Program-made: the position numbers and the translations under genes
Virus record (IMG/VR): IMGVR_UViG_3300034062_003556
Span: 1 to 24,653 of that record
Source: a virus
Direction: 5' to 3' (one strand)
Length of the DNA: 24,653 nt
The notes under the pieces: model-generated
What the model was told of the DNA's origin: nothing
The model's input: the letters and a program-made list of their open reading frames with translations, nothing else
The model's database searches: none
In this document: one piece after another, positions 12,611 to 23,121 of the stretch
Position numbering within the stretch: the first letter of the stretch is position 1
Layout of the letters: each line of letters begins with the position of its first letter

Positions 12611-12958
12611 ATGATTAACACTATTATGAATGGGGCAGGAATAAATGTTATTGCCAGCGGTTCCTCGACGCCCTATATTGACATGACTCGAACCAGTGCT
12701 GGCATGGTCCGATACAACAATAACAATGTTGAAGTTTATGACGGCAACTCTTGGATAATAATGTCCAGCGGCATGGTCCAGGTCAGTCTTGATGGGGTGA
12801 CCTTGGAATCCTTACAATGGGTTCGCCGCAAAATGACTGAAGAAAAGCGTCTTGAAGAATTAGCGAAGACTCATCCCACAGTGGCTGATGCCTTGTTGAC
12901 TAGAGACCGTGCAGAAGATGCACTAAAAATTACTGTAGCATTGTGTGACACTAAATGA
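12611..12958 (+). CDS. Virion-like small protein (fibre-type motif)
   Basis: A 115-residue protein. GMVRYNNNNVEVYDGNSWIIM (about 31-51) is the 'G..RYN....EVYDG..W' motif common in phage tail-fibre and neck proteins, preceded by a G-rich, strand-like head (MNGAGINVIASGSSTPYIDM). The C-terminal half (about 62-112) is a charged helix (LESLQWVRRKMTEEKRLEEL...), ending LCDTK. It is therefore an odd mix: a fibre-like module fused to a helical tail, in a replication-type gene run rather than the late region. AGGA about 8 bases before the ATG is the only good Shine-Dalgarno site in this run. Function is uncertain. Confidence 0.6.
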   Translation: MINTIMNGAGINVIASGSSTPYIDMTRTSAGMVRYNNNNVEVYDGNSWIIMSSGMVQVSLDGVTLESLQWVRRKMTEEKRLEELAKTHPTVADALLTRDRAEDALKITVALCDTK

Positions 12959-13524
12959 GCGCGGACATTGACATTGACGTGCCCAACAGAGATGCTGTGT
13001 TGCAACTGATACAGCATGTGCCTGCACAACAAAGCACTGGACGTAGACACAACTCAGGCATATATGTCACAGACATTCCACGAGATGCAGTCAACGGGCA
13101 TGCAGCATTAGACTACGAGTCAGCAGAACAGCGAGGTTACTTCAAGATAGACCTGCTGAACATGAGTGTTTACAACTTGGTTCAAAGCCCCGAACACTAC
13201 GAAGCACTACTGGCACAAGAGCCCAATTGGCAACGATTATGTACTGACACAGCCTGGGCCAGCCAACTGGTACACGTGGGCAATTATGTGGATTTGTTAA
13301 AGATAATGAAACCTGATTCAATACCTAGAATGGCTGCTTTTATCAGTATCATTAGACCAGGCAAAGCACATCTACAGCGTCGGCCCTGGGATCAGGTGTT
13401 TGCTGAAGTATGGAATGGTGATGATTCACGGGGTTACACTTTTAAAAAGGCACATGCTATCAGCTACGCTGCCTTGGTGGCCCTGCACATGAATTTACTC
13501 AATACGCCTGACCAAGGTAATTGA
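12955..13524 (+). CDS. Miniature DnaE-like protein (C-family DNA polymerase motifs)
   Basis: A 189-residue protein carrying, in the same order as bacterial DnaE (DNA polymerase III alpha), five recognisable blocks: ADIDIDVPNRDAVLQLI (3-19; DnaE PDFDVDF...RDQVI, with the two metal-binding Asp), GRRHNSGIYV (29-38; DnaE GKHAGGVVI), GYFKIDLLNM (61-70; DnaE GLVKFDFLGL, third Asp = Asp66), QLVHVGNYVDLLKIMKPDSI...IIRPG (104-136; DnaE [29 protein letters not shown]) and YTFKKAHAISYAALV (161-175; DnaE YGFNKSHSAAYALV). Bacterial DnaE is about 1160 residues; here the PHP, beta-binding and OB parts and most of the fingers are absent. The three catalytic Asp seem to be kept. It may be a reduced polymerase, or a decoy or modulator of the host enzyme. 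It starts at an ATGA overlap with the previous gene and its 3' end overlaps the convergent gene by 30 bases. Confidence 0.75.
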   Translation: MSADIDIDVPNRDAVLQLIQHVPAQQSTGRRHNSGIYVTDIPRDAVNGHAALDYESAEQRGYFKIDLLNMSVYNLVQSPEHYEALLAQEPNWQRLCTDTAWASQLVHVGNYVDLLKIMKPDSIPRMAAFISIIRPGKAHLQRRPWDQVFAEVWNGDDSRGYTFKKAHAISYAALVALHMNLLNTPDQGN

Positions 13525-18207: not shown

Positions 18208-18918
18208 ATGAAGAAAATTTTTTGTTTTGGTGACGGATTTGCAACTGGACATATATGGCCAGAATGGCCTCAGATTTTACAAACGCTGCTGCCCCAATAC
18301 CAAGTGATCAACACAGCAGGAGTTGGGGCAGGCACTGAATTTTTAGTTTCAGGATTTGTGGATCTAGTAGATGGTATGCACGACAGCATAGTAATTTTTC
18401 AATGGCCTAACGCAAATAGATTCGACAAAATGATTCAAGATGATTCCTGGCAAAATATCATTGCCAACGATCCAACGTATTATTTTAACGTCAATGTTGA
18501 TTCACAAGATCGTAAATGGTGGTTGAGTAGTGCCAGCACAGTCCAAGAAGTTCAAGACTATCACAAACTGTATGTGCAGCTAGGCCAACACAATCGTAGA
18601 CAACAGATGTATCAGACCCTGGTATCGCACACAGCCGCTAATTTAAATTGTCAACTAGTTCATACTAGCACACAGTCAGCAGACACATTCAGCCAGCACA
18701 GCCGATTCGGATTAACCCGGCAGACACAAGTACAACCGTCTCCAATTGTGCATTTCTATTGGTTAGTTGAACAAATTATTCCGCAAATTGATATCACTGT
18801 TGATCAAAATTTACAAAAAGAATTGGAATTGTTGATTAATCAAACACCCTGGATTCCATATGACCCTGATCGAGAATCAATATGGTCAGACATAAATGCC
18901 AAACTCGAGTTTAAGTAA
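18208..18918 (+). CDS. SGNH-like protein with altered nucleophile position
   Basis: A 236-residue protein from ATG 18208, one base after the previous stop; a TTG at 18190 is not preferred. FCFGDGFATG (about 5-14) sits where SGNH enzymes have GDSxTxG, but the catalytic Ser is replaced by Gly. TAGVGAGTEFLV (about 36-47) and QWPNANRF (about 65-72) fit blocks II and III, and PSPIVHFYWLVEQI provides a candidate block V His. It resembles the 11219-11938 protein in layout but not in its GCS nucleophile, so it may be inactive, use another residue, or bind glycan only. Its 3' end overlaps the convergent fibre gene by 8 bases. Confidence 0.55.
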   Translation: MKKIFCFGDGFATGHIWPEWPQILQTLLPQYQVINTAGVGAGTEFLVSGFVDLVDGMHDSIVIFQWPNANRFDKMIQDDSWQNIIANDPTYYFNVNVDSQDRKWWLSSASTVQEVQDYHKLYVQLGQHNRRQQMYQTLVSHTAANLNCQLVHTSTQSADTFSQHSRFGLTRQTQVQPSPIVHFYWLVEQIIPQIDITVDQNLQKELELLINQTPWIPYDPDRESIWSDINAKLEFK

Positions 18919-20116
18919 TTGAACCTTTGATCACTGCAAAGCGTAACACAACTGCTTCTCCTAATGTGCCCGCTGTACGATTAGTCAACGTAATTACTGC
19001 TGACCCTGTGGTGCAATTGCCGTTGACGTTGTAGGCGCCAAGTGTAGCTCCTCCAACAATGTTGATCAACAGCAAATCACGTGTGCCAATAGTAGAGTTG
19101 GTTAGCGTAAAACTCACAGCAGTAGCCGCAGCCAAGTTGGTATTCTGCATGGTGATTTCACCAGATGGTTTGTTCAACACCACTGTACCAGATTTGTTGC
19201 CAGACTGTGAAATAGTGCCGCCTGCTCCTGCTGCATAGCCCACAGTTCCGGCGCTGGTCAAACCGATACCAGCAGCACCGGCCACAGTTACGTTACCAGT
19301 GACACTTGCAGTTCCTATACTAGCGATTCCAGTAGTAATAACATTGCCTCCAGCAATATTACCTGTGACGCTTAGGTTGCCAGTTATGTTGCCCGAGAAT
19401 GCACTGATGCCGCCCACGTTCAGGTTGCCGCCAATGCCCACACCGCCTGTTACAACCACAGCACCTGTGGTGGTACTGGTGCTCACAGTGGTGTTGGTAA
19501 AAGCTATAGGTGTACTAACAATACCAGGATCACGACTGTTGTCAAAGATCCAAATGGTTGTGCCGCCGTCAACGCTCACAAACTCAAATGCATAGTTGCC
19601 CACAGCGCCAAATGTAATGGTGTTTGATACACCAGGTGTGCCCGGCGATACACCGCCAATCGTGGCAATGCCCTGACTCACTGACGCTGGCAAGGTCACA
19701 GTGTGTGCAACGTTGGTGATGTTGAAACCCACTCGTACAGTGCCAGCAGATCCACTGGCAGGAAAGTTTGTGAAACTCAGGCTAACTGATCCTGTGGTAC
19801 TGATTTGTTGGAATGCTGCTGCTGAATAATCAATGGCAATACTGCCACTGGTTGTGGTAATAGGCAAATAGGTATACGAAACGTCATTTAGTTTCACAGC
19901 ATAAATGAGATTGTCTGCCATGTTGTTGTTCAACGTAGTGCCCGACAGTGCAGCCTTTAGCACAACCTTGCTTTGTAGGTCGTCTATTTCGTTTTCGGCA
20001 TATTGAAAGTTTGTTTTGATGTTGGTAAAGTTGTCTCTGAAGCCCTGGGTGTTATTGGGCACGCCGGCAACTGGATAGGTACCGTCGATATTGTTTGGGT
20101 TGATTTGGCTGGTCAT
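18911..20116 (-). CDS. Fibre-like virion protein with glycine-rich repeats
   Basis: A 401-residue protein. The N-terminus INPNNIDGTYPVAGVPNNTQ GFRDNFTNIKTNF (about 5-37) followed by AENEIDDLQSKVVLKAAL (about 40-57) is a block I know from T4-like marine phage virion proteins, possibly the attachment end. About 215-290 is built of 'TGGVGIGGNLNVGG', 'GNITGNLSVTGNI' and 'GTASVTGNVTVAG' units, the beta-helix-like repeats of phage fibres and spikes. The C-terminus (about 335-401) is a beta-rich domain, possibly a head or trimerisation unit. ATG 20116 has AAGGA about 9 bases upstream and a late octamer at 20144 to 20137. It is probably a tail-fibre or other surface protein; whether it meets the receptor is unknown. 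Confidence 0.8.
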   Translation of the reverse strand: MTSQINPNNIDGTYPVAGVPNNTQGFRDNFTNIKTNFQYAENEIDDLQSKVVLKAALSGTTLNNNMADNLIYAVKLNDVSYTYLPITTTSGSIAIDYSAAAFQQISTTGSVSLSFTNFPASGSAGTVRVGFNITNVAHTVTLPASVSQGIATIGGVSPGTPGVSNTITFGAVGNYAFEFVSVDGGTTIWIFDNSRDPGIVSTPIAFTNTTVSTSTTTGAVVVTGGVGIGGNLNVGGISAFSGNITGNLSVTGNIAGGNVITTGIASIGTASVTGNVTVAGAAGIGLTSAGTVGYAAGAGGTISQSGNKSGTVVLNKPSGEITMQNTNLAAATAVSFTLTNSTIGTRDLLLINIVGGATLGAYNVNGNCTTGSAVITLTNRTAGTLGEAVVLRFAVIKGSIT

Positions 20117-20159: not shown

Positions 20160-20166
20160 CTAAATA
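20160..20166 (+). promoter_or_regulatory. Late promoter for the 20185 operon
   Basis: CTAAATA at 20160-20166, 18 bases before ATG 20185, with a weak AAAGG at 20171-20175. It points away from the fibre gene. Confidence 0.65.
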
Positions 20167-20184: not shown

Positions 20185-20433
20185 ATGCAGAAAAAAACTC
20201 GAAGTATTCTAGAAGAATTAGAATCACTGTATGTAGAACGTGATCAGCGCTTGCTGATCGAAAATCGTGCTACAAACGTGATTGCTAATGCCATACGACT
20301 AGTAGAACAAATTGAAGCTGAGTATGATGCTGAAGCAGCAGACAATCTCACAAGAAAATTACTCAATGCCATTCGCACCAAAGACGCAGGCAAGTTCTCG
20401 CGTTCAGTAAGGAGAACCCATGCAGATTCATGA
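20185..20433 (+). CDS. Small helical late protein of unknown function
   Basis: An 82-residue, highly charged protein made almost entirely of helix. ILEELESLYVERDQRLLIENRATN (about 8-31) and IRLVEQIEAEYDAEAADNLTRKLLNAI (about 37-63) have heptad-like spacing, suggesting a coiled coil. The C-terminus is basic (GKFSRSVRRTHADS). No catalytic motif is visible. It is the first gene of a late operon, overlapping the next start by 14 bases; the two following genes look virion- or nucleic-acid-related. A structural or chaperone role is possible; function is unknown. Confidence 0.7.
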   Translation: MQKKTRSILEELESLYVERDQRLLIENRATNVIANAIRLVEQIEAEYDAEAADNLTRKLLNAIRTKDAGKFSRSVRRTHADS

Positions 20434-21193
20434 ATTAACACGTAAACAACCCATCAAAGAAGCATCAGTTGGTGGAGCGCTTGGCGGAGCAGCCAGCGTA
20501 GTAGGTGGTATAGCATCACAGTTGGTCAACAAAGCTGCTGCTGCCCAGGGCTTGAATCCAGTGATTGGCGGCCAACAAAAAGCCACTGTGGCTGGAGCGC
20601 AAGACGCAGCCTTCTCTGCCACTGATCCACTGATTAAGGGTCTAGCAACTGCTGCTGCAAAAGAATGGAAACAAACTGTCAGCGAACTGATGCAAACCAT
20701 GAAAACTCCAGCTGGATTAATGGCAACTCGTCCAAGTGAACTACCACCAGCCCAATTACAACAGGTGCTGGAAGACATGGTGTCAAGATTGATTGGTGAA
20801 CCGTATGAATCGTTGGTCAATAAGGTAAGTGCAGAGGCACACGACGGAACAGGCAAACAATACGCTGCCAAATTAACCACATCCATTAAAAATCAAATTG
20901 ATGCTATTGTGGCACAAGAACAAACAGCTGGCAAACCTGATCCCAACAAAGAGTCAGCACTATGGAGCACATTGGCAGCAGCAATTTCAGATGCCAAAAG
21001 CGAAATAGAGTTTAGCTCCAGCAAAGGTCAAGGCGCTGTTGCTCGGCCTGGCCTACTGCCGCCTGCATCAGAGCAATTGGCAGATGAGCTGGGAATGTCG
21101 GACCAAACCATTGCTGCTTTGCAAAATTATATCAGACTTAACGGCAGCAAAATAACTCCTGCACTAGCAGCGTTGTTGGGTGGGGTCAAATGA
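20420..21193 (+). CDS. Ala/Gly-rich late protein, probable virion component
   Basis: A 257-residue protein. The head MQIHELTRKQPIKEASVG is followed by a glycine/alanine-rich stretch (ALGGAASVVGGIASQL, about 20-35), which could be a membrane-active or flexible segment. The rest is helical, with Gln/Ala/Lys-rich parts (LQQVLEDMVSRLIGEPYESLVNKVSAEAHDGTGKQYAAKL). A conserved-looking C-terminal helix pair follows (EQLADELGMSDQTIAALQNYI). AAGGAG (20409-20414) gives a strong start at 20420. It is translationally coupled to the nucleotidyltransferase-ligase-like gene (ATGA overlap at 21190-21193), so the two may act together. The glycine-rich head recalls phage proteins delivered with DNA; this is inference. 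Confidence 0.65.
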   Translation: MQIHELTRKQPIKEASVGGALGGAASVVGGIASQLVNKAAAAQGLNPVIGGQQKATVAGAQDAAFSATDPLIKGLATAAAKEWKQTVSELMQTMKTPAGLMATRPSELPPAQLQQVLEDMVSRLIGEPYESLVNKVSAEAHDGTGKQYAAKLTTSIKNQIDAIVAQEQTAGKPDPNKESALWSTLAAAISDAKSEIEFSSSKGQGAVARPGLLPPASEQLADELGMSDQTIAALQNYIRLNGSKITPALAALLGGVK

Positions 21194-23121
21194 ATCTGAT
21201 CGAAGGCGGCAACGTATTCAAAGACAAAATGGGTCTGCCACTCACGCAGCGCATTGATCAAGCAGACATACCCGGCACTGTGCAGTGGTTGGAAACTGTA
21301 ACAGGGCTAGACTTGACCAGCACAGAAGATCCTGCTACAGGTTATCCTGTAAAATGGCTGGGCAGCACAGGCAAAAAACCGTCATCGGGAGACTTGGATC
21401 TGGCAGTTGATACCAACGAAATCACCAAGGGCGAATTAAAAGTCAAACTAGATCAATTTGCCACAAGTCAGAGTCAGGACCCAAGAGAGTTTGTGCGTAT
21501 GAGTGGCGAAGCTGTGCATTTTAAAACACCCATACTTGGCAATGCTGATAATGGTTTTGTACAAACAGATTTTATGTTCATGCCTAATGTTGAATGGGGC
21601 TCATTCTTTTTGTCTGGTGGTGTTGATTCTGAGTACAAAGGTTTGTACCGCAATATACTCTTGAGCTCGATTGCCAAGAGTTTAGGACTCAAGGCTTCTG
21701 CTAAAGGAGTCACTAGCAGAATAACAGATCAGTTAATACCAGGCGGACTTGATCCTGACCACGCTGCTGAAGTATTGCTGGGCAAAGGCCGCACTCGAGA
21801 CAATCTCAAAAATGTCGAAGCCATTTATGCTGCTCTAGCACGTGATCCCAAGAAGGACGCCAAACTTGAAGACTTCCGTCAATATCTTGCTAGGGACAAT
21901 CTCAAAGAGCCGTCAGCGTCGGTTGCTGAAGATGATGTGGGATTCCTGGGACGACTACGTGATCGCATTGTGAATCGTGGTTACGTGGCCCTGGTAGAAA
22001 ACAACATGATTGTAGAAGCTGCTGAACCCGGAGTGGGCGGCAGAGCCAAGGGCATCGAACACCTGGAAGATTTAGTGTTTCGTTACGGCGCCGCTGGTAT
22101 ACAACAAGCACTAGACATTGTCAAACATGCCACTGAGTCCCCTGGAACAGTTACTGCCAAGTGGGACGGAAAACCAGCTGTGATATTTGGCCGCAAACCC
22201 GACACCGGTGAGTTTGTGCTCACAGATGGTTCAGGGTTTGAAGCCAAGGGCTACGACGGACTTGCTACCAGTCCACAAATGATGGCAGATATACAAAGCA
22301 ACAGATCTGGAGACAGAACTGAACTGATCAACCTCTATGCAACACTGTTTCCAGTACTAGAAGCTGCTTTGCCCCCTAACTTCCGTGGTTATGTCAAGGG
22401 AGATCTGTTGTACATGCAACGTCCTCCTGTGATAGCTGGCAACTATGTGTTTGAGCCCAACACTATTGAATATCGTATTCCTGTCAAAAGCTCTATGGGA
22501 CAGCGCATTGGCAACAGCAACATAGGTGTTGCTGTTCATAGTATGTACAGTGATGCTGGTGAACCACGACAGCCACTTGGCGGCGTAGCGTTCAATGAAG
22601 TACCAGGATTGTTACTGGAGCGTCCTGCCACTCCTAACACCTTGGAAACTGATCCAGCCATTGAAAAGCAACTGCGAATGATTGTTCGCACCTACGGAAA
22701 CAGCATGAAAACTCTGTTTAACCCAGCTGAACTTCGTACTGCACAAATCACAGATTTGTTCAAGCTGGCAGTGGATTTTATCAATACCAAAGTGGGTGCT
22801 CCGTTACAACCTGCTAATCAGTTGGTAATAGAATTTGGCAACTGGTTAAAAACCAAAGTAACTCCACGCAAGTTCAACAACATTGTGGAATATTTGAACA
22901 GTCCCAGCAGCAACATTGAAGCCCTGGGCGCAGCGTTTTATGCATTTGAACTGCTGCATGCACTCAAGATGCACCTTAAAGATCAAGCAGACGTTGCCAA
23001 TCCTGGCGGGGAAGGTTGGGTCATGGCCACGCCTGCAGGCTACGGCAAGCTGGTTTCTAGGTTTGATCCCACTGCATTTGCTGCTCAAAACCGAGCTAGA
23101 AATAACCCTCAACAGGCGTGA
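21190..23121 (+). CDS. Two-domain protein: pol-beta-type nucleotidyltransferase plus ligase-like KxDG domain
   Basis: A 643-residue protein. The N-terminal part has the nucleotidyltransferase signature: G58-S59 in WLGSTG, then SSGDLDLAV (Asp68 and Asp70) and a third acidic residue in VQTDFMFMP (Asp127), the hG[GS]...DxD...D pattern of pol-beta-fold enzymes. The central part has a ligase/capping-type motif I, VTAKWDGKPAVIFG (Lys324-x-Asp-Gly327), followed by a motif-III-like YVKGDLLYM (Gly404-Asp405) and an IEYRIPVKSS segment that may match motif IV. The two signatures are joined by about 180 helical residues (about 150-290), with a C-terminal helical part after about 480. The chemistry suggested is nucleotide transfer plus formation of a covalent lysyl-AMP, as in RNA or DNA end repair; substrates are unknown. 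It is coupled to the gene before it in a late operon. Confidence 0.7.
   Translation: MNLIEGGNVFKDKMGLPLTQRIDQADIPGTVQWLETVTGLDLTSTEDPATGYPVKWLGSTGKKPSSGDLDLAVDTNEITKGELKVKLDQFATSQSQDPREFVRMSGEAVHFKTPILGNADNGFVQTDFMFMPNVEWGSFFLSGGVDSEYKGLYRNILLSSIAKSLGLKASAKGVTSRITDQLIPGGLDPDHAAEVLLGKGRTRDNLKNVEAIYAALARDPKKDAKLEDFRQYLARDNLKEPSASVAEDDVGFLGRLRDRIVNRGYVALVENNMIVEAAEPGVGGRAKGIEHLEDLVFRYGAAGIQQALDIVKHATESPGTVTAKWDGKPAVIFGRKPDTGEFVLTDGSGFEAKGYDGLATSPQMMADIQSNRSGDRTELINLYATLFPVLEAALPPNFRGYVKGDLLYMQRPPVIAGNYVFEPNTIEYRIPVKSSMGQRIGNSNIGVAVHSMYSDAGEPRQPLGGVAFNEVPGLLLERPATPNTLETDPAIEKQLRMIVRTYGNSMKTLFNPAELRTAQITDLFKLAVDFINTKVGAPLQPANQLVIEFGNWLKTKVTPRKFNNIVEYLNSPSSNIEALGAAFYAFELLHALKMHLKDQADVANPGGEGWVMATPAGYGKLVSRFDPTAFAAQNRARNNPQQA

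Follow-up and report, generated by a model that had tools for sequence, protein, structure and literature searches.

The virus record IMGVR_UViG_3300034062_003556 of IMG/VR, analysed over its full length of 24,653 nucleotides (the window), encodes a protein of 643 residues in which a nucleotidyltransferase resembling the family X DNA polymerases is joined to DUF6267, a Pfam family without assigned function. The open reading frame begins with ATG, runs over 643 codons and ends with a stop codon at 23119-23121. An earlier note on this DNA had proposed that one chain combines a nucleotidyltransferase fold with that of the ligase-type covalent nucleotidyltransferases, and this proposal is supported by the alignments and predicted structures described here. 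The gene and its parts are the following (residue numbers are those of the fusion protein):

21190-23121, plus strand: fusion gene, 643 residues, family-X-like nucleotidyltransferase and DUF6267 (open reading frame list, Pfam match, alignment)
21190-21909, plus strand: N half, residues 1-240, Pol-beta/family-X-like nucleotidyltransferase domain (AlphaFold model and Protein Data Bank [PDB] fold matches)
21361-21399, plus strand: GSTGKKPSSGDLD, residues 58-70, with carboxylates D68 and D70 (invariant in 23 fused and 28 divergent homologs)
21568-21570, plus strand: D127, the third carboxylate (invariant in the same 23 and 28 homologs)
21916-22056, plus strand: linker between the halves, residues 243-289, of low confidence (predicted local distance difference test, pLDDT, <50; absent or variable among homologs)
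22030-23118, plus strand: C half, residues 281-643, DUF6267, predicted ligase-type adenylyltransferase core (PF19782 profile, model, PDB matches)
22159-22170, plus strand: motif I, K324-W-D-G (invariant in the fused, divergent C-half and first cyanophage-inclusive alignments)
22396-22410, plus strand: motif III-like K-G-D405-L-L (D405 invariant in the same three alignments)
22654-22998, plus strand: helical insertion between motifs III and IV, residues 489-603 (secondary structure of the model)
23011-23022, plus strand: motif IV, E608-G-W-V (E, G and V invariant in the fused and divergent C-half alignments)
23047-23061, plus strand: motif V, K620-x-V-x-R624 (invariant in the fused and divergent C-half alignments)

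The conservation of these motifs was followed in three alignments: 23 fused homologs from viral contigs, which are 63-92% identical to the window protein; 17 C-half sequences that include intermediate homologs from other viral contigs, with identity down to about 20%; and 28 divergent N halves, with identity down to about 22%. D68, D70, D127, K324, W325, D326, G327, K403, G404 and D405 are invariant in all 23 fused homologs, and these include every residue that the earlier note had named, the motifs being located in the open reading frame. The note had made its reading depend on a fold match and on the conservation of Lys324 and Asp68, Asp70 and Asp127; both were checked, and conservation was found as well as fold matches, none of the latter reaching E 0.001 in the PDB. 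Since the residues stay invariant over great divergence in both halves, a chance occurrence of the motif pattern is ruled out by the 23 fused, 17 C-half and 28 N-half sequences. Catalytic activity of either half is predicted from these motifs and from the folds.

In the N half, the first two carboxylates lie within LGSTGKKPSSGDLDLAV (residues 57-73), and the domain contains GSTGKKPSSGDLDLAV as well as VQTDFMF, in which TDF corresponds to residues 126-128. The whole-protein AlphaFold model has a pLDDT of about 75-93 over much of residues 10-240, and 49 of the 50 PDB matches listed for this half are family X DNA polymerases (lambda, mu, beta, TdT and the PolX of African swine fever virus, ASFV), with Pfu DNA ligase at rank 22. 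The stretch following D127 (W-x-F ... YKG-x-x-R-N-x-L-L-x-S-x-A-K-x-x-G) resembles, in our reading, the start of the family X thumb, and one N-half homolog matches the Pol beta thumb family PF14791 at E 0.0061, below the cut-off. No Pfam family is matched by the N half of the window protein or by the divergent N-half members, and the RlaP profile PF10127 is likewise unmatched in the window protein, in these members and in six related contigs; with the folds pointing to family X polymerases, RlaP and CCA-adding enzymes were rejected as identities of this half. A scan of cellular genomes with one N-half protein, sensitive to close relatives only, returned no relative.

The C half is a member of DUF6267 (PF19782) by profile (E 6.1e-28, 98.7 bits against a curated cut-off of 27, residues 289-625) and also matches phrog_455 in the PHROG search. 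Its residues are numbered as domain position plus 280. The earlier note had pointed to AKWDGKPA (residues 323-330, in the wider stretch TAKWDGKPA) and KGDLLY (residues 403-408, in YVKGDLLY), and had missed two motifs further downstream, which follow the layout E608-G-W-V-x8-K620-x-V-x-R624. Judged from the sequence, KWDG is motif I of the ligase/capping superfamily, G-D405 stands at the motif III position, EGWV is motif IV and K620 belongs to motif V. As so assigned, motifs IV and V complete the covalent nucleotidyltransferase set and are the strongest evidence for a ligase-type enzyme. Invariant throughout the 17 divergent C halves are H291, E293, D294, K324-W-D-G, G334, G340, G400, D405, F421, P423, Y428, G437, H450, K593, E608, G609, V611, K620, V622 and R624. 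The spacing from E608 to K620 is identical in the cyanophage Syn1 protein (EGYVLHKDGSMIK). A first alignment had placed TPAGY of the window protein against TPEGY of the cyanophages; this was overturned with the intermediate homologs, by which EGWV aligns to EGYV.

A model of the C-half domain built on 50 homologs reached a pLDDT of 85.2 and a predicted template modelling score (pTM) of 0.80. The eight top-ranked PDB matches of this model are ATP-dependent ligases without exception (LIG3, Pfu ligase, nucleosome-bound LIG3, an archaeal DNA ligase in two entries, LIG1, and the archaeal RNA ligase 5d1o in two chains), and capping enzymes and the Naegleria RNA ligase are found at lower ranks. Neither the window protein nor the 17 divergent C-half members match the profiles of ATP-dependent DNA ligases (PF01068) or of Rnl1 and Rnl2 (PF09511, PF09414); the silence of the PF09511 search is uninformative, since it was equally silent in every control genome. 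Comparison of the C half with four phage DNA ligases by hhalign, with these four close templates only, gave nothing. The fusion cannot be identified with the replicative DNA ligase, because the six related contigs each encode one ordinary ATP-dependent DNA ligase elsewhere on the contig; an NAD-dependent ligase was not found in them.

The two halves are linked by their genomic association. Four stand-alone N halves were aligned with that of the window, and a scan with this alignment yielded 80 viral loci. In 76 of these, DUF6267 is encoded downstream in the same orientation: as part of one open reading frame in 13, as an overlapping neighbour in 52, within 151 bases in seven and about 920 bases away in four. 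All 76 partner proteins contain K-x-D-G, and 75 contain K-x-[VI]-x-R. The functional tie that the earlier note had suggested is supported by 76 of 80 loci. Among the remaining four, contig L319 ends soon after the N half, and contigs L294, L311 and L324 offer enough room, yet DUF6267 is not nearby. In two of the latter (L311:2606-3583 and L324:4950-5939), the N half is overlapped upstream by a gene unrelated to ligases. On a tree of 69 N halves, five switches between the fused and the split state are required, three of which are forced by well-supported branches, so that at least three fusion or fission events between the N half and DUF6267 have to be assumed.

In jumbo phages, the N half adjoins another protein with a KxDG motif: it stands directly before this protein in Sinorhizobium phage Phosso and Agrobacterium phage Atu_ph07, and is separated from it by two genes in Pseudomonas phage PA5oct. 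The partner in Atu_ph07 weakly matches PF09414 RNA_ligase (E 0.002) and is labelled RNA ligase in a viral structure library; in this library, the DUF6267 model matches the PA5oct partner at E 2.6e-5 and the Atu_ph07 partner at E 3.5e-3, the entries being matched by protein length and phage. With hhalign, the C half and three jumbo-phage partner proteins aligned at motif I alone (probability 22%, P 0.001). The occurrence of two divergent ligase-type families beside the same nucleotidyltransferase argues for one joint function. In Flavobacterium phage immuto, a relative of the N half occurs without DUF6267, and for the N half of Lak-A2 no KxDG partner was seen, its large neighbour being a thymidylate synthase gene. 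The immuto relative is directly followed by gp088 (L331:4914-7634, 907 residues), in which a Pol-beta-like motif (GS...FGDLDI) occurs together with a metallopeptidase-like HExxH motif and a HIGH-type domain that is annotated NadR. A further protein of 225 residues, mostly helical-looking (e.g., L084:5824-6501) and without PHROG match, lies near the N half in 39 of the 80 loci and directly follows it in Phosso.

DUF6267 also has a second partner. Among 160 DUF6267 loci of the cyanophage and Melnitz types, 146 contain a HIGH-type cytidylyltransferase motif in the same stretch, phrog_455 spans both the DUF6267 and the HIGH-type domain, and in contigs L289, L290 and L322 the N half, DUF6267 and a HIGH domain form one chain. 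These three-domain chains lie at L290:2030-5359, L322:5929-9756 and L289:3814-6006, with long extra C-terminal regions in the first two. The cyanophage DUF6267 genes adjoin uvsX and gp41.

In the window, the fusion gene is preceded by primase and DnaB-type helicase genes as well as by a gene for a protein of 82 residues. The features immediately preceding it are:

20160-20166, plus strand: CTAAATA, a possible late-promoter-like motif 18 bases before the 82-residue gene (not significantly enriched in the window)
20185-20433, plus strand: 82-residue protein, PHROG 11854 (virion structural), a conserved companion of the cassette (PHROG match; in 72 of 80 N-half loci)
20420-21193, plus strand: 257-residue protein without assigned function (overlaps the fusion gene by ATGA; relative in just one of 80 N-half loci)

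The coupling to a possible virion protein described in the earlier note is therefore real, through the ATGA overlap with the 257-residue gene and the PHROG 11854 gene before it. Its claim of expression from a late promoter is weak: exact TATAAATA was not found upstream of the gene, and CTAAATA occurs five times in the window against 2.29 expected, a count reached in nine of 100 shuffles. The 82-residue family is common to RaK2, 121Q, PA5oct and Phosso; in RaK2 and 121Q it is annotated virion structural and follows a gp41-like helicase gene. In PA5oct, the N-half homolog itself carries the depositors' annotation 'structural protein, ESI-MS/MS' (electrospray ionization tandem mass spectrometry), as do several neighbours, and this annotation is the one direct hint that suggests packaging into the virion. 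Elsewhere in the window, a stand-alone protein of 189 residues (12955-13524) matches phrog_11778, called DNA polymerase, at E 3e-53, and similarly short 'DNA polymerase' genes are found near primase genes in RaK2 and 121Q; a 401-residue gene on the minus strand (18911-20116) just before the cassette matches phrog_18251, without assigned function.

The analysis shows the motifs, the predicted folds, the conserved pairing and the repeated fusion. From them we infer the activity, the order of steps and the substrate of a two-step enzyme that would first fill in and then seal nucleic-acid ends or gaps, a reading to which we give about even chances of being right. The N half would be a minimal family-X-like polymerase, consisting of a palm with three carboxylates and a thumb-like tail and devoid of the 8-kDa domain, and would extend a 3' end by one or a few nucleotides or fill a short gap. 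The DUF6267 half would act as an ATP-dependent ligase-type adenylyltransferase, in which K324 accepts the AMP moiety of ATP and transfers it to an end with a 5'-phosphate; the 3'-OH generated by the N half could then attack the adenylylated end and thereby seal it. With no OB-fold (oligonucleotide/oligosaccharide-binding) domain after motif V, the substrate would probably be gripped by the helical insertion (residues 489-603), and the enzyme would operate in phages whose ordinary DNA ligase is encoded separately. As substrate, DNA ends or gaps have a slight edge over RNA because of the family X resemblance and the replication context. An extension, in which a virion-carried module of this polymerase, the OB-less DUF6267 ligase and sometimes the HIGH-type nucleotidyltransferase as a third component acts on the ends of incoming phage DNA to repair or join them, is a long shot.

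Several observations weigh against the two-step enzyme. The fold matches are of limited significance: the top PDB matches of the N half have a probability of 1.00, but the best E value is 3.5e-3, none reaches E 0.001, and template modelling scores (TM-scores) are low, and those of the C half have a best E of 0.013, again with none at E 0.001, and TM-scores of about 0.2, to which the insertion of about 115 residues (489-603) probably contributes. In searches of PDB chains, the profile of 28 divergent N halves found no polymerase, and the fused-homolog and C-half alignments found neither ligases nor polymerases; the N half is therefore called family-X-like and not filed as a member. In the C half, the motif III position is occupied by Asp where ligases usually have Glu, and only 19 residues follow R624, leaving no OB-fold domain after motif V. 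Finally, the N-half motif was not found in the 160 cyanophage-type and Melnitz-type loci, and since DUF6267 in cyanophages mostly occurs with the HIGH-type partner and without the N half, the ligase-type half is not always coupled to a polymerase.

One alternative is the repair of RNA, such as tRNA, against host nucleases, in which nucleotides at the end of a cleaved RNA would be restored by the N half before DUF6267 rejoins the break, as has been proposed for RlaP with Rnl-type RNA ligases. An OB domain is used by DNA ligases, whereas RNA ligases more often do without it. The best fold matches of the C half include an archaeal RNA ligase. RNA keeps some weight as a substrate because the Atu_ph07 partner has an RNA ligase as its nearest sequence match, and because joint action of the Pol-beta enzyme RlaP with RNA ligases has been proposed in jumbo phages (PMC7824862). 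However, the N half is like family X rather than RlaP or CCA enzymes, no tRNA gene was found in the window, and the partner genes observed serve replication or the virion and not end healing by kinase or phosphatase. RNA repair, which the earlier note had offered as an example, is thus not specifically supported, and we consider it unlikely, if a serious candidate.

Alternatively, DUF6267 and its partners might modify targets other than polynucleotide ends, for example by protein AMPylation, by formation of a nucleotide-linked small molecule or by capping, while the HIGH-type partner would provide nucleotide in activated form. The frequency of this partner in cyanophage-type loci and its fusion to DUF6267 in phrog_455 and three viral contigs would fit, as would the capping enzymes among the weak fold matches of the C half, and protein-modifying Pol-beta nucleotidyltransferases have been described in injected phage proteins (PMC5512222). 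Yet ligases outrank capping enzymes in the fold matches, and it would be left unexplained why other jumbo phages pair this N half with a protein resembling RNA ligases, which makes this explanation quite improbable. That the protein is a virion component with inactive relics of enzymatic folds, as the PA5oct annotations and the 82-residue companion might suggest, is very hard to credit, given that both halves keep all their catalytic residues even in very divergent homologs, which is unexpected of relics.

By these assignments, DUF6267 gains a testable enzymatic identity and a defined partner. The family is widespread, with matches in 323 annotated phage records and in at least 500 viral contigs in each of two scans, and a literature search found no paper that names it. 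If the two-step reading holds, a ligase-type enzyme has gone unrecognised next to the replication genes of many cyanophages, and another group of phages possesses a polymerase-plus-ligase tool, which would represent a new end-repair pathway and possibly a source of new laboratory ligases. Were the virion-carried module true as well, it would constitute a Ku-independent viral end-joining system, parts of which occur in hundreds of phages.

The closest known systems include the other DUF6267/phrog_455 proteins, such as Syn1_160 of Prochlorococcus phage, which share KWDG, GD, EG[YW]V and KxVxR with the C half; unlike the window protein, the cyanophage members have no family-X-like half and are paired with a HIGH-type cytidylyltransferase. 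The family X DNA polymerases (Pol beta, lambda, mu, TdT and ASFV PolX) share GS...GD-x-D and the third Asp with the N half and provide its best PDB fold matches; the N half differs in having neither a sequence-level match nor the 8-kDa domain. Similarly, ATP-dependent DNA and RNA ligases have motifs I, III-like, IV and V in common with the C half and provide its best PDB fold matches, whereas the C half lacks the OB domain and any profile match, has Asp in motif III and carries a long stretch of helices inserted between motifs III and IV. LigD unites polymerase and ligase activities that process and seal ends, its polymerase being of an unrelated primase type; bacterial end joining of this kind is an analogy in working only, and the fusion protein is not a member. 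The pairing logic, a Pol-beta nucleotidyltransferase with a covalent ligase in phages, is shared with RlaP (PF10127) and Rnl-type RNA ligases, the pair proposed for jumbo phages (PMC7824862), but by profile the N half is not RlaP and the C half is not Rnl1 or Rnl2, and RlaP and Rnl are usually separate proteins. A Pol-beta nucleotidyltransferase paired with a ligase is already known in kind; this pair of families, its repeated fusion and the alternative HIGH-type partner appear to be undescribed in the literature searched.
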